From Paenibacillus rubinfantis (GTDB lineage Bacteria > Bacillota > Bacilli > Paenibacillales > Paenibacillaceae): a stretch of DNA of 64,000 bases. The position numbers and the translations under genes were made by a program. The stretch covers positions 372,001-436,000 of the forward strand of contig NZ_LN909064.1 of assembly GCF_001486505.1 (NCBI RefSeq), written 5' to 3'. Shown here one piece after another: positions 5,464 through 61,741 of the stretch (within the stretch, counting starts at the first letter, position 1; each line of letters begins with the position of its first letter). Under the pieces are notes generated by a model. The model saw nothing but the letters and a program-made list of their open reading frames with translations. It made no database searches and was not told the origin of the DNA.

Positions 5464-6825
5464 ATGCATAGCGGAATGCAGAGTCAATGGATACCGGAGA
5501 CGGAAGGCTCCGGGAACGAGCAAGCCGGGCTGCTGCGCAAGCTCAAGGACAAAACCGCGGTGATCGGCGTGATTGGGCTAGGGTATGTGGGGCTGCCGCT
5601 GGCCGTCGAAAAGGCGAAAGCCGGCTACCGCGTCATCGGATTTGACGTGCAGAGCCGGAAGATCGAGATGCTAAACCGCGGTCATAACTACATAGGGGAC
5701 GTCGTGGATGAGGATTTGCGCGGCATGGTGGAGGACGGACGGCTGCGGGCGACCGCGGAGTATGCGTTTTTGCGCGAGGTAGATGCCGTGGCGATCTGCG
5801 TGCCAACGCCGCTGGATATTTATCAGCAGCCGGATACGAGCTACGTAGAGAATTCCACGCGGGAAATCGCTCGGTTTCTGCACCCGGGGATGCTGGTCGT
5901 GCTGGAGAGCACCACCTACCCCGGGACGACGGAGGAGTTGGTGCGGCCGATCCTGGAAGCGACGGGACTGCGCTGCGGGGTTGATTTTTTTCTGGCGTAT
6001 TCCCCGGAACGGGTGGATCCCGGCAACAAAACCTACAACACGAAAAACACGCCCAAAGTGGTGGGCGGCGTCACGCCGGCATGCTCGAAGGTGGCCGAGG
6101 CATTGTATCGCCAGGTCCTGAACGGCGACGTGCACGTGGTATCCAGTCCGGCGGTGGCGGAAATGGAGAAGATTTATGAGAACACGTTCCGTCATATCAA
6201 CATCGCCTTAGCCAATGAGATGGCCGTTCTCTGCAGCCGGATGGGGATTAACGTGTGGGAAGTCATCGATGCAGCAAAGTCCAAGCCCTATGGGTTTATG
6301 GCTTTTTATCCGGGGCCGGGGCTAGGCGGGCATTGTATCCCGGTTGATCCGTTTTACCTGACCTGGAAAGCGCGGGAGTACGGGTATCATACCCGACTGA
6401 TCGAGTTGGCGGGGGAGATCAATAATGCGATGCCGGAGTTCGTGGTACGGCGGATCGGCGATATCTTAAACGGCGACCGTAAGTCGCTGAGCGGTTCGAC
6501 CGTCTATTTGCTGGGTGTCGCGTACAAAAAAGACATCGACGATTACCGCGAATCGCCGGTGCTGAAAATGATCGGACTGCTGGAGGAGCGCGGCGCCACC
6601 GTATGGACGAGTGACACGCATATTGCGGAGTTCAAACATCAGGGCCTCGCTTATACGTGCGAGGAACTGACCGAGCAGCGGCTGAGGGACGCCGATATTG
6701 CGGTCATCACAACCGATCATTCGGGCTTTGACTACGAACTGATCGGGCGCGCCAGCGGCTGCCTGCTTGACACTCGAAACGCCATGAGGGAGCAGGTCAA
6801 GCCGGAGCGGTATTACTTGCTGTAG
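5464..6825 (+). CDS. UDP-N-acetylhexosamine 6-dehydrogenase (WbpA/WbpO type)
   Basis: The 453-residue protein belongs to the UDP-glucose/UDP-HexNAc dehydrogenase family, which oxidises C6 of the nucleotide sugar to a uronic acid using two NAD. The N-terminal NAD motif is GLGYVGLPLA near residue 38. The catalytic Cys is in GGHCIPVDPFYL near residue 290; the IPVDP context is typical of HexNAc rather than glucose dehydrogenases. The C-terminal domain starts around LGVAYKKDIDD. It should supply UDP-GlcNAcA to the upstream oxidoreductase. A 300-bp repeat array separates it from the acetyltransferase downstream. Confidence 0.85.
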   Translation: MHSGMQSQWIPETEGSGNEQAGLLRKLKDKTAVIGVIGLGYVGLPLAVEKAKAGYRVIGFDVQSRKIEMLNRGHNYIGDVVDEDLRGMVEDGRLRATAEYAFLREVDAVAICVPTPLDIYQQPDTSYVENSTREIARFLHPGMLVVLESTTYPGTTEELVRPILEATGLRCGVDFFLAYSPERVDPGNKTYNTKNTPKVVGGVTPACSKVAEALYRQVLNGDVHVVSSPAVAEMEKIYENTFRHINIALANEMAVLCSRMGINVWEVIDAAKSKPYGFMAFYPGPGLGGHCIPVDPFYLTWKAREYGYHTRLIELAGEINNAMPEFVVRRIGDILNGDRKSLSGSTVYLLGVAYKKDIDDYRESPVLKMIGLLEERGATVWTSDTHIAEFKHQGLAYTCEELTEQRLRDADIAVITTDHSGFDYELIGRASGCLLDTRNAMREQVKPERYYLL

Positions 6826-6910
6826 CGATTGGCCCGTGTCATATGGCTTGCGGCCAGCGGGTGGGCTCGGGCGGCAGGCGGTGCATCGACGTCTCTCCGG
6901 CCTCTGGCGC

Positions 6911-7091
6911 AAATGTTGTATTTATTGCATCATTTGGACTCCAAATGGCGGGTGGCGCGCGGAAATGTTGCACTTCCTGCAACATTTATGCTCCAAATCG
7001 GGTTGGAGCCGCCCAATTGTTGTACTTATTGCAACATTTCCGGCCAACGCAGCTCATTTTGTCGCTAAATGTTGCACCTTTTACAACAAAT
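6911..7091. repeat. Array 1: four 25-bp palindromes at exact 52-bp period
   Basis: Four copies start at 6911, 6963, 7015 and 7067, each built as 10-base arm, 5-base loop, 10-base arm. The consensus is AAATGTTGYA, loop, TRCAACATTT. Loops differ (TTTAT, CTTCC, CTTAT, CCTTT). The copy at 6963 is a perfect palindrome. Spacers are all 27 bases and differ, though the first two share CTCCAAAT. The array fills most of the 300-bp gap inside the polysaccharide operon. Transcribed, it would form four consecutive hairpins. Confidence 0.9.
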
Positions 7092-7125
7092 CTCACCCAA
7101 TTTACCTTAAGAGGAGCTAACAAAC

Positions 7126-7707
7126 ATGGATGGATCGATTCATGAAACCGCGGTTGTGGATCCGGGAGCGCAGGTTGGGGAAGGGACGAGAATTTGGCAT
7201 TTTACTCATGTGTCGTCAGACGCGGTTATCGGCAGCCGGTGCAGCTTGGGGCAAAACGTCTATATCGCCAATCGCGTTCGCATCGGCAACGGGGTGAAGA
7301 TCCAAAATAACGTCTCCGTCTACGAAGGCGTTATTTTGGAGGACGAGGTGTTTTGCGGGCCAAGCATGGTCTTTACCAATGTGCGGACTCCGCGCGCGGC
7401 GTTTCCACGTAACCGCAGCGAGGATTATCTCAAGACGCGGGTGGGGCGCGGCGCGTCGATCGGGGCGAACGCCACCATCGTCTGCGGGATCACGATCGGC
7501 GAATGGGCCTTGATCGCGGCCGGGGCCGTCGTCACCCGCGATGTGCAGCCCTACGCGCTGATCGCCGGGGTGCCCGGGCGGCGCATCGGCTGGGTGTGCC
7601 GCTGCGGGAAGACGCTGGGCTTTAGCGGCGGGGCCGGACAATGCAGCGACTGCGGCCGGGAATACCGGCTGGAGCAGGACGTCGTAGCGATCATGAAGGA
7701 AGGGTGA
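7126..7707 (+). CDS. Left-handed beta-helix N-acetyltransferase (WbpD/WlbB-like)
   Basis: The 193-residue acetyltransferase carries hexapeptide repeats, for example IGSRCSLGQNVYIANRVRIG and later ASIGANATIVCGITIG, which form the trimeric left-handed helix that binds acetyl-CoA. WbpD/WlbB members acetylate the C3 amine of UDP-GlcNAc3NA. The C-terminal tail has paired cysteines (CRCG, then CSDCG), a small zinc-ribbon-like end that I associate with this subfamily. AAGAGGAG lies before the ATG. It sits directly ahead of its partner aminotransferase, and the two genes abut. Confidence 0.8.
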   Translation: MDGSIHETAVVDPGAQVGEGTRIWHFTHVSSDAVIGSRCSLGQNVYIANRVRIGNGVKIQNNVSVYEGVILEDEVFCGPSMVFTNVRTPRAAFPRNRSEDYLKTRVGRGASIGANATIVCGITIGEWALIAAGAVVTRDVQPYALIAGVPGRRIGWVCRCGKTLGFSGGAGQCSDCGREYRLEQDVVAIMKEG

Positions 7708-18003: not shown

Positions 18004-18122
18004 AAATGTTGTATTTTATGCAACAATTTTTTTCGGTTCTCGTGAGTTTAGGCCGAAATGTTGCATAAAGTACAACAATTTAAGGGTGTTATCGCAAATT
18101 GGCCCTAAAATGTTGTATAAAA
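18004..18122. repeat. Array 2, left part: 25-bp palindromes at 52-bp period
   Basis: Complete copies at 18004-18028 and 18056-18080 and the left arm plus loop of a third at 18108-18122 follow the same 10-5-10 design as array 1. Starts are 52 bases apart. The third is split by the insertion sequence and resumes at 19784. The rest of the 220-bp gap after the sugar transferase gene shows no gene. Confidence 0.9.
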
Positions 18123-19778
18123 GAGTCAATTTCATAATTCAGTTTGCTGGAGGGCATGCTTGCCCAAAATTCGAGATCGTTTTTTATAAAAATCAGGCGA
18201 CTTGCCGGTGCTGACTCAACTGCTTGTTCAACTTGTCTAAGGCAAACTTACTGAGATTATAAGCCAACGTGCTTAACTGAAAGTCGACGCTCGCTCGAAC
18301 ACCGCGGTGACGTGTGCGTCTCATTCCGAAATACTCCTTGAGGTAGGCAAATACGCGCTCCACAGCAGTTCGTTTCTTGTACAGCTTCACAAAGCTCTCG
18401 CTTCCTCTTGCCGGATAGGTGTGCTTGCGCAGATCCGTTTCAATGCGGATCTTAAAGACCTTCTGGCAGCTGGACTCGGCAAATGGGCAATCCTTGCACT
18501 CGTTTGGCCGAGTATATCGAAGTGTCTCGTATTTGGTGTCAAAACTGTCATAGCGGTAGGCATGCCCCTCCTTGCAAACGGGACTGTAATCCCGGTTCAT
18601 TCCCTCGGGAGGTTCCGTATGGTGGATTATATCAATGACCGGGTAGGCGCCTAGCGAGTGAATTAACTGGTAGACCGCCTTGCTGTCGTAGCCTTTGTCT
18701 CCTAAGACGTGCTTCACTTTAAGCATAGGGAACTTCAGCGGCAGGCCCTTAAGCAGCAAAATCGCCATTCGTTGGTCGTTTGGGTTCGCCGAGCTGAACA
18801 CACCGCTGAGAATGTATTGGCTGTCGGTATCCACTAATATATTCGCCTTGAAACCATACCAGCTGGTGAGCCTGCCTTTAGAGTTCTTTTTGTCACAGCG
18901 TGCGGCCTGCCTAGGCAATGCAGCGAGCAGTTCATCGTATGTGGAGGACAGCATGTCCTCCACTTTCTTCTCAAACGGCCCTAGGCTCGCTTCGTAAGCC
19001 TCCCGTTCCTTACGCCGACGCTCTGTTTCTTCAGCAGAGGCGCGCCCGCGCGGGTAGGTCGGTTTCCTAGGCCGTTCGCTCACGGGTGGGGGTTGCGACT
19101 CGGTGACATCCAATTTGAGTTGTTCTAACTCCGGTGTCTTACTTTGTTTTTTGGAACGTCGAGCGGCCCGTCGCTTGGATGCGGACTCGCTGAATTGGCA
19201 GTCCCAAGCTTCGACGATCGAGGAGTCGACGGCGATATGCGTACCAGATACGAATCCTTCTTCTAAGGCGGACAGTACTAGACGGTCCTGTAACTTCTCA
19301 AGAAGTCCATTTTGTTGCAGCGCATGGATCAGTCTCGAATAGGAAGCTTCGCTCGGTATGCGATTGGAACCGGTAAACCGACACTGGATTCGAAATTCTT
19401 CGCTGGACTTGAGCCGCTTAACCAGGGCGGACACAAATTCTATACCTTCCATTTTTGCGATGAGCAGCGAATAGATCATGGCCGGCACGTTCAATTCCTC
19501 CGGTCGCCCACGGCCGTGTTTTTTACTTAGCGATTGCATAACCGGAGCGAGGTTCAAATGCTCGAAGATCTGGCTATATCTATCTTCAGGTTGCATTTGT
19601 AACAATTCCTCGAAGGAAAACAGTTCTATTTGGCGAATTGAATAGATAGGGGTTACCTCCTTTTTTTTCTCTCGGGTTTGGTTTGGTTACCTGTTAATTC
19701 GAGATTTGGGGAGGTACTCCCTTTTCTATGACCAAAATATCCAGCTAGATCAACGGCTTTGAATTATGAAATTGACTC
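18123..19778 (-). mobile_element. IS1182-like insertion sequence
   Basis: The element is 1656 bp, bounded by perfect 19-bp terminal inverted repeats (18123-18141 and 19760-19778, GAGTCAATTTCATAATTCA reading inward). It is flanked by the direct repeat TAAAA (18118-18122 and 19779-19783). One transposase gene fills it on the minus strand. The intact ends and full-length gene suggest a recent insertion. The target is the five-base loop of a palindromic repeat. Confidence 0.9.
18193..19596 (-). CDS. IS1182-family DDE transposase
   Basis: The transposase is 467 residues from the ATG that follows GAGGA by 10 bases; a TTG three codons earlier is less likely because it would leave no spacing. The catalytic triad can be placed: the first Asp in HIAVDSSIVEAW near residue 124, the second in VLGDKGYDSKAVY near residue 300, the Glu in KRTAVERVFAYLK near residue 430. 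The central region is basic and repetitive (SKRRAARRSKKQSK). A CDCPF-type cysteine cluster precedes the last domain, a common trait of IS1182/IS5-like transposases. It appears intact. Confidence 0.85.
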   Translation of the reverse strand: MQPEDRYSQIFEHLNLAPVMQSLSKKHGRGRPEELNVPAMIYSLLIAKMEGIEFVSALVKRLKSSEEFRIQCRFTGSNRIPSEASYSRLIHALQQNGLLEKLQDRLVLSALEEGFVSGTHIAVDSSIVEAWDCQFSESASKRRAARRSKKQSKTPELEQLKLDVTESQPPPVSERPRKPTYPRGRASAEETERRRKEREAYEASLGPFEKKVEDMLSSTYDELLAALPRQAARCDKKNSKGRLTSWYGFKANILVDTDSQYILSGVFSSANPNDQRMAILLLKGLPLKFPMLKVKHVLGDKGYDSKAVYQLIHSLGAYPVIDIIHHTEPPEGMNRDYSPVCKEGHAYRYDSFDTKYETLRYTRPNECKDCPFAESSCQKVFKIRIETDLRKHTYPARGSESFVKLYKKRTAVERVFAYLKEYFGMRRTRHRGVRASVDFQLSTLAYNLSKFALDKLNKQLSQHRQVA

Positions 19779-19783
19779 TAAAA

Positions 19784-19845
19784 TGCAATACTTTAGGGCC
19801 TCTGAGCAAATAGTCGTCTGAAATGTTGTACTTAATACAACATTT
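19784..19845. repeat. Array 2, right part: palindrome remainder and fourth copy
   Basis: TGCAATACTT at 19784-19793 is the right arm of the copy interrupted at 18122. A full copy lies at 19821-19845. Removing the IS and one target duplication puts this copy 52 bases after the third, restoring the period. The rest of the 19846-19979 gap holds no recognisable gene. Confidence 0.85.
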
Positions 19846-26979: not shown

Positions 26980-27019
26980 CAGGTTGTTGCAAAAACGCAG
27001 ATTATATCAAACTATCAAG

Positions 27020-27126
27020 TTCGTATATCCTCAGTAATATGGATTGAGGGTCTCTACAAGGAACCATAAATTCCTGACTACGAATAGGGTGCTTTCGCAT
27101 ACCTATGAGGGGTCGGGAATTTTTTT
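27020..27126 (+). promoter_or_regulatory. Guanine-type purine riboswitch with intrinsic terminator
   Basis: P1 is TTCGTA (27020-27025) with TACGAA (27079-27084). The J1/2 and J2/3 cores (TATCCTCAGTAATATGG and GTCTCTAC) and the AACCATAAATT of the P3 loop match the purine aptamer. The specificity base is C (position 27078, equivalent to C74 of xpt), which predicts guanine/hypoxanthine rather than adenine. AATTCCTGAC (27070-27078 region) can instead pair with GTCGGGAATT before seven T residues, forming a terminator exclusive with the aptamer. The layout predicts guanine-dependent shut-off of the next gene. Confidence 0.9.
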
Positions 27127-61442: not shown

Positions 61443-61473
61443 TGCTGCTGCAGAATCGTAGCAGGAAGTGGCT

Positions 61474-61741
61474 CGGATGAGTGACGGAATGTCCGGTCGG
61501 ATGAGTGACGGAATGACCAGTCTGGATGAGTGAAGGGATGACCAGTCTGGATGAGTGACGGATTGACCAGTCTGGATGACTGGGGGAGTGAGCAGTCGGA
61601 TGACTGGGGGAGTGAGCAGTCGGGTGAGTGGCGGAATGTTTGGTCGGATGACTAAGGGAGTGAACAGTCGGGTGACTGACGGAATGTCAGGTCGGATGAC
61701 AGACGGATTGTCCAGCTCGATGATTAACCGATTGCCTGACC
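61474..61741. repeat. Minisatellite of about eleven 24-25 bp units
   Basis: Units resembling CGGATGAGTGACGGAATGWCCAGT start at 61474, 61498, 61523, 61548, 61573, 61597, 61621, 61645, 61669, 61693 and 61718. Most steps are 24 bases (8 codons), four are 25. One frame from 61576 reads an octapeptide repeat like MTGGVSSR for about seven units, but no ribosome site precedes it and the shifts break the frame, so no gene is called. Confidence 0.85.

Follow-up and report, generated by a model that had tools for sequence, protein, structure and literature searches.

The window, a 64,000-nucleotide stretch of the Paenibacillus rubinfantis genome, contains two copies of an element built from four near-identical palindromes (Table 1). 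Element 1 lies between a UDP-sugar dehydrogenase gene, which ends at 6825, and a hexapeptide transferase gene, which starts at 7126 and has a ribosome-binding-site-like stretch. These two genes and a sugar transferase gene are neighbours of the window elements. Element 2 is complete in its four palindromes once the 1656-bp insertion sequence (IS) and a 5-bp duplication are subtracted; its Paenibacillus mellifer counterpart (L110, with matching gene order) has four palindromes and is uninterrupted. The counterpart of element 1 in P. phocaensis (L095, 6138-6564) is an expanded form that repeats internally about every 207 bp.

The sequence-only reading had described eight palindromes at 52-bp steps, with changing loops and differing spacers. 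Seven of the eight were found at the predicted starts (at most three mismatches; 0.01 expected by chance). The eighth, at 18108, is the one cut by the IS, and the distance from P3 to P4 becomes 52 bp when the IS and the 5-bp duplication are discounted. The loops and spacers are as described. Both arrays do lie inside an exopolysaccharide locus, as that reading held, but the palindromes show no bias towards it: 137 of them, with at most one mismatch, are found genome-wide. Elsewhere in the window are a 24/48-bp tandem repeat (61473-61723; about ten copies of the 24-bp unit) and the sole Rfam match, a purine riboswitch (27001-27100; RF00167, 74 bits).

Table 1. Features of the two window elements, and insertions of the same IS in palindrome loops
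Feature	Position	Strand	Remarks
Element 1, four palindromes, 52-52-52	6911..7091		pattern search
Element 1, palindrome P1	6911..6935		
Element 1, spacer s1	6936..6962		27 bp
Element 1, palindrome P2	6963..6987		
Element 1, spacer s2	6988..7014		27 bp
Element 1, palindrome P3	7015..7039		
Element 1, spacer s3	7040..7066		27 bp
Element 1, palindrome P4	7067..7091		
Element 2, four palindromes, IS splitting P3	18004..19845		convergent intergenic region
Element 2, palindrome P1	18004..18028		
Element 2, palindrome P2	18056..18080		
Element 2, P3 left arm and first loop copy	18108..18122		arm 18108-18117; loop TAAAA 18118-18122, first duplication copy
Insertion sequence in P3 loop, ends GAGTCAATTTCATAAT	18123..19778	-	1656 bp; foreign to the element
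DDE transposase of the P3-loop IS	18193..19605	-	470 aa; DDE_Tnp_1 and DUF772 (Pfam)
Element 2, P3 second loop copy and right arm	19779..19793		loop 19779-19783; arm 19784-19793
Element 2, palindrome P4	19821..19845		
GAGTCAATTTCATAAT IS in palindrome loops	window 18108-19793; L166 2996-4683; L181 1228-2916; L269 (V4I3, near 948731)		

Copies, spacing and placement

The palindromes share the consensus TGTTGYA-N5-TRCAACA. Exact matches account for 109 of the 137 sites in the 5.37-Mb P. rubinfantis genome, and the 100 of these 109 that are listed fall into at least 33 loci on eight contigs. Three relatives carry 92-110 palindromes each, a fourth carries 34, and a genome from another family (G040) carries 12. 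Any palindrome match at all was found in 14 of 59 genomes, and none in 25 of the 36 genus genomes of the same search; the reversed-pattern control hit one and two places in two genomes and otherwise zero. A search for the paired pattern was positive in five of 40 genus genomes and in 13 of 196 family genomes (in five of 19 genera), with zero hits for the reversed control in all of them. Among the matches listed, named carriers are nearly all Paenibacillus, including P. timonensis, P. mellifer, P. phocaensis, P. ginsengihumi, P. phytorum, P. alginolyticus, and P. pectinilyticus. Three genome-scan matches outside Paenibacillus (L040, L059, and L082) were judged not to be elements. Searches of the open-licence literature, including Paenibacillus-specific and motif-letter searches, found no paper recognisably describing the element among those listed.

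Among the matches listed, exactly four palindromes occur in 95 of 160 chains. In the P. rubinfantis genome (loci from 100 of the 109 exact sites) the proportion is 27 of 40; nine of the other 13 chains are pieces of five IS-cut elements, and four are fragments. A few expanded copies exist, such as the P. phocaensis locus described above and L266.

The palindromes are set at whole helical turns. In the window's clade the palindromes follow one another at 52-52-52; a short-short-short order, of 51 or 52 bp, is also seen in P. phytohabitans, strain CAVE-418, and G040. The other Paenibacillus carriers examined are short-long-short, mostly 51/52-62-51/52. Among the matches listed, the 95 four-palindrome chains comprise 74 short-long-short, 20 short-short-short, and one other, counts that include orthologues and, for the long-spaced class, are not independent because ancestry is shared within subfamilies. 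The collection scan admitted every spacing from 37 to 67 bp, and of the 270 neighbour distances in this range (named loci listed), 183 measure 50-53 bp, 81 measure 61-64 bp, and six anything else. Fifty-two base pairs equal five turns of 10.4 bp, and 62 bp equal six turns of 10.3 bp; the element is accordingly 181 bp long (52-52-52) or about 191 bp (52-62-52). The outcome that would have refuted the sequence-only reading, genome-wide copies at random spacing with no locus bias, was seen by half: the locus bias is absent, but the spacing is strictly non-random.

Copies form subfamilies of dispersed, similar elements, and some loci show tandem growth. At L185 (2937-3899) the whole element is present in four tandem copies with a period of about 260 bp, and the P. 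timonensis counterpart (L034) is single. Tandem repeats of about 184 bp adjoin the element at L162 (4029-5388). In three elements of one subfamily (L043, L056, and L065) short GAATG-, GAGT-, or ATGG-like simple repeats lie directly upstream. A phage origin was considered and rejected: of four matching viral contigs, one carries a related array and the rest do not carry the element. This array (L266, 55-441, from a viral collection) runs at five steps of 51 bp, then 62 and 51, with the variant half-site TAGTTGYA. Two other proposals were also dropped. A lone palindrome at an orthologous place in G035 (L009) had suggested decay after loss of a protein; no remnants at 52-bp steps stand above background. 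Two half elements 7.5 kb apart in the genome V4I3 had suggested an insertion; they flank a sugar-transport-like gene run and are separate fragments.

By a simple reading-frame finder, the elements are intergenic. Among the matches listed, 133 of 154 elements have a callable context (21 do not): 57 lie between convergent genes (43%), 68 between tandem genes, and eight between divergent genes (6%), orthologues included. In 216 control gaps of at least 200 bp, approximately 29 are convergent and 65 divergent (counts rebuilt from rounded shares; p 1.6e-9 and 1.4e-8). The elements favour the 3' ends of genes and keep away from promoters. A silencing site was one suggestion of the sequence-only reading; one peculiar to the exopolysaccharide locus is not supported, because elements sit at 3' gene ends throughout the genome.

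Orientation relative to replication was followed in V4I3, whose genome is a single contig. GC skew in 20 sampled stretches (one of them, at 3.01 Mb, out of line) places the origin at about 0.91-1.05 Mb and the terminus at about 4.9-5.3 Mb. Among the 100 listed of 122 sites, one subfamily (loci L209-L260) is co-oriented with replication in 22 of 22 copies, 13 on the left arm and nine, facing the opposite way, on the right arm; a second cluster agrees in six of eight, and five of the 35 V4I3 elements are not oriented. By local GC skew, 33 of 34 copies of the first subfamily over five species are co-oriented (some of them orthologues); a separate count of copies outside V4I3 gives 14 of 14. Its convergent copies, which have no transcription direction, obey as well (12 of 13 over all species). 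The rule is weaker in P. ginsengihumi (16 of 20; p 0.01). Neither a second large subfamily, over all species (p 0.26), nor the short-spaced class (p 0.2) shows such a rule, although 15 of 20 convergent copies of the short-spaced class agree. Replication orientation is therefore not a general property, being strict in one subfamily and weak or absent in the others, and it was dropped as the main explanation. The bias is read as the trace of one subfamily's spread, not as a clue to what the element does.

Core conservation and the spacer wave

Ten orthologous pairs allow the parts of the element to be compared. Identical positions number 466 of 480 (97%) in the palindrome core, 544 of 808 (67%) in the spacers, and 314 of 508 (62%) in the 27-bp flanks; the Y/R position, the loops, and the outer bases agree at 52 of 80, 148 of 200, and 202 of 240 positions, respectively. 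Spacers at orthologous loci can be aligned between species, and their conservation is just slightly above that of the flanks (0.67 versus 0.62). The contrast between core and flanks indicates that purifying selection acts on the core in place. Within elements, too, there is variation in the loops, the Y/R positions, and the outer bases.

The Y/R position bears on how a half-site might be read. The left arm carries a pyrimidine in 615 of 616 palindromes and the right arm a purine in 607 of 616, both favoured by the finder's pattern. Yet the arms are non-complementary here in 79 of 179 palindromes of the short class (44%) and 173 of 427 of the long class (41%), and the tendency to match is weak (odds ratio 1.6, p 0.13, short; 1.7, p 0.009, long). 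This suggests that each half-site is largely kept independently, as a protein reading base pairs would require. The loops shun inner complementarity (0.19 and 0.13 versus 0.39 and 0.37 expected), and so are mostly short A-tracts (runs of A or T) and not palindrome centres. One strong link between arms, 2R with 3L in the long class (p 8e-8), tracks the subfamilies and is absent in the short class (p 0.36).

The spacers of P. rubinfantis (n = 61) are nearly unalignable with one another (mean identity 0.298 versus 0.255 shuffled). What they have in common is a wave of composition, in which AT-rich peaks recur roughly every ten bases, in phase with the palindromes. In spacers of 27 bp the inner AT peaks fall near positions 9 and 18, and spacers of 37 bp have one peak extra. 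Each of the six spacer sets has a Fourier power of 0.09-0.19 at 9-12 bp periods, against shuffle maxima of 0.026-0.047 (500 shuffles); the power is strongest near 9-10 bp in every set, a period that a 27-bp stretch fixes coarsely. For P. rubinfantis alone (61 spacers; periods of 9-11 bp) the power is 0.115 versus 0.041, above all 1000 shuffles. The 27-bp flanks yield a power of 0.019 in the short class, no higher than the shuffles, and of 0.033 in the long class, above the shuffle maximum of 0.019 but several times weaker than in the spacers. These low values indicate that the wave largely ends at the outer palindromes. Column profiles were drawn from four-palindrome chains with few mismatches and away from locus ends, with off-frame spacers cut or gapped in mid-spacer. 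The short words that the sequence-only reading saw shared among spacers are real, but a small part of this general wave. The simplest cause of such a wave would be DNA bent around something.

A proposed docking site and rival readings

Taken together, these features are probably best read, if by no wide measure of confidence, as a docking site for protein on double-stranded DNA, in which four putative dimers would occupy a single face of bent DNA where transcription units end, much like a BIME. Each palindrome would bind one dimer of a sequence-specific protein, which would read the half-site TGTTGYA as base pairs; all four dimers would lie on the same face of the DNA, and the AT/GC wave would permit bending or wrapping around the assembly. 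The most likely job of such a complex would be in chromosome architecture or supercoil control at transcription-unit ends, as proposed for Escherichia coli BIMEs. A phased protein-binding array was among the possibilities raised by the sequence-only reading; spacings that differ by whole turns, together with the helical AT/GC wave of the spacers, make it the one favoured here.

Several observations count against a docking site. With carriers in 13 of 196 family genomes, the element is patchily distributed and so serves nothing universal. It disperses and duplicates, as in the fourfold tandem at L185 and the expanded L095, which is what selfish repeats do. The weak arm matching at Y/R, the slight surplus of s2/s3 complementarity in the long class, the RNA fold of the window element, the weak flank wave of the long class, and the small margin by which spacer conservation exceeds that of the flanks also weigh on that side.

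A selfish repeat of REP or MITE type is the rival that survives best, though we consider it rather unlikely. Here the palindromes would be recognised by a mobilising enzyme, and copies would have spread to harmless 3' gene ends with no function for the host. Dispersed subfamilies of similar copies, the patchy distribution, tandem duplications, and the avoidance of divergent gaps are all as expected, and the co-orientation of one subfamily is what strand-biased copying at replication forks would give. However, the core is kept while the flanks diverge (97% versus 62%), which argues that selection holds old copies in place. The Y1 (REP/IS200) transposase PF01797, present in 20 of 39 genomes overall, is absent from the element-rich genomes G013 and G022. 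Neither an insertion duplication nor an empty site was seen, and the element's ends are themselves palindromes. Moreover, mobility alone leaves the helical quantisation and the spacer wave unexplained.

Tandem RNA hairpins were also suggested by the sequence-only reading; at 3' ends they could terminate transcription, stabilise mRNA, or bind protein as RNA. They now appear improbable: covariation is slight, and beyond the AT/GC pattern the spacers show no clear pairing. The location of the elements at 3' ends would suit RNA, as would the weak arm matching at Y/R. The window element folds as RNA with z -4.9, although any nest of four self-complementary palindromes would give such a value. In several sets the spacers are more self-complementary than simple shuffling would give (z up to 5.2), and against a null that preserves the AT/GC pattern no self-pairing was found (z -0.5 to 1.6). 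Pairing of s1 with s3 was likewise not found (z 1.1 for short-spaced and -5.7 for long-spaced elements). In the long class, s2 and s3 show a slight excess of complementarity (z 2.3 against the AT/GC-preserving null; z 4.7 against permutation). Against hairpins stand the many non-complementary Y/R arms; the lack of a terminator-like site at 6700-7200 of the window; the lack of an Rfam 15 match above gathering score at the element in a search of the window; and the spacing itself, since whole turns are meaningless for single strands. Two larger folds were tried and rejected. A giant nested hairpin joining s1 and s3, prompted by the fold of the window element, fails with s1/s3 complementarity at or below chance; a cloverleaf, in which P1L pairs with P4R to close three hairpins, had early hints at L038 that failed over the 108 elements tested.

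Operators through which a transcription regulator would control the element-adjacent genes are a very improbable reading. The 19-bp dyad with strict half-sites is operator-like, and element 1 directly precedes a gene with an apparent ribosome-binding site. But convergent gaps are enriched and divergent ones, where promoters lie, depleted (57 and eight of 133, among the matches listed); no promoter-like site was found at 6700-7200 of the window; and a fixed set of four phased sites exceeds what a regulator needs. A CRISPR array or relic, for which the regular 25-bp repeats and 27-bp spacers might be taken, is excluded: the repeats vary between and within copies, the units usually number four, at no fewer than 33 loci, the spacers align between species at orthologous loci, and Cas1 (PF01867) is absent from five of the six element-bearing genomes searched, including P. 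rubinfantis (it is present in G022). The element, in short, is not CRISPR, not exopolysaccharide-specific, and not tied to the Y1 (REP) transposase.

The docking-site reading invites comparison with other dispersed palindromes. E. coli BIMEs sit at 3' gene ends. Like the element, BIME/REP sequences supply many extragenic palindromes per genome in regular groups; unlike them, the element usually has four palindromes of one consensus set whole turns apart (52 or 62 bp), every spacer shows the wave, and two carriers (G013 and G022) lack the Y1 transposase. REP palindromes have a GTAG-type tetranucleotide beside them, which was not found here; the edges of the element's palindromes are AAAT/ATTT-like. 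Sites of the nucleoid occlusion proteins Noc and SlmA are dispersed palindromes that thin towards the terminus and, to our knowledge, are single, without fixed groups of four. The element's palindromes thin similarly in V4I3, where, among the 100 listed of 122 sites, the region around the terminus from 4.70 to 6.02 Mb contains no exact match; counted by locus, the bias towards the origin is weak, the proximal half of one arm having 19 of 27 (p 0.05). The BOX and RUP repeats of pneumococcus and STAR of staphylococci are likewise intergenic dispersed repeat families of one lineage, and we know of none that consists of four helically phased palindromes.

Gyrase is one candidate partner. As far as we know it is to be expected in all the relatives, and the element is not found in all. 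In E. coli, BIME-2 repeats contain more than their share of gyrase cleavage sites, and the enzyme's motif includes, next to the cut, two regions in which GC content is periodic (PMC6379681). It is this motif and preference that make gyrase a candidate, and the wave near 9-10 bp gives the Paenibacillus element the helical AT/GC periodicity of a gyrase-binding element. The motif spans about 130 bp with a distinct centre, however, and the element 181-191 bp; this length, the strict palindromes, and the absence from most relatives speak against gyrase alone.

A more specific version of the docking site can be offered only tentatively. In it, a dedicated, lineage-specific protein would form a positioned nucleoprotein particle, four dimers wrapping about 190 bp in a register encoded by the sequence at dozens of 3'-gene-end loci. 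The registers would be 52-52-52 or 52-62-52, each on one helical face. If true, the particle would be the nearest bacterial counterpart of a nucleosome position encoded by sequence, and its two alternative geometries would differ by one helical turn. Bacterial nucleoid elements seldom reveal their architecture in plain sequence; here the number four, the whole-turn spacing, the short-long-short symmetry, and the spacer wave can all be read. With a core conserved between species, this makes the hypothesis of a wrapped, phased complex directly testable. The element would offer a clean model in which to study the role of interspersed palindromic elements in chromosomes, and would supply a marker family for Paenibacillus genomes.

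Insertion sequences in the palindromes

The IS that splits element 2, which we take to belong to the IS1182 family, is present in four copies in P. rubinfantis. Three lie in the 5-bp loop of an element palindrome, and in each of these the loop is the 5-bp duplication (TAAAA, TTTAG, and TTTAG); the fourth lies elsewhere, with the duplication TTAAT. One of the two V4I3 copies is also in a palindrome loop (CATTA). Targeting of the exact palindrome centre leaves room for a cruciform reading of the element, a further point to set against the docking site.

A different IS of 1377 bp, with frames of 113 and 308 aa and presumably of IS3 type from its domains, occupies the same spot in two elements (L161, 3086-4462; L186, 3068-4444). 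The two copies are 99.7% identical, and each is flanked on both sides by the first three bases of the third palindrome: AAC in L161, and AAA in L186.

The loop insertions have a parallel in IS1272, which is reported to insert at inverted repeats; the same paper draws duplication of the loop alone as a model route (PMC5678879). IS1272/IS1182-type sequences target inverted repeats, as does the GAGTCAATTTCATAAT IS. The outcomes differ: IS1272 is reported to have replaced the inverted repeat without a duplication (PMC5678879), whereas the GAGTCAATTTCATAAT IS keeps both arms of the palindrome and duplicates the 5-bp loop.
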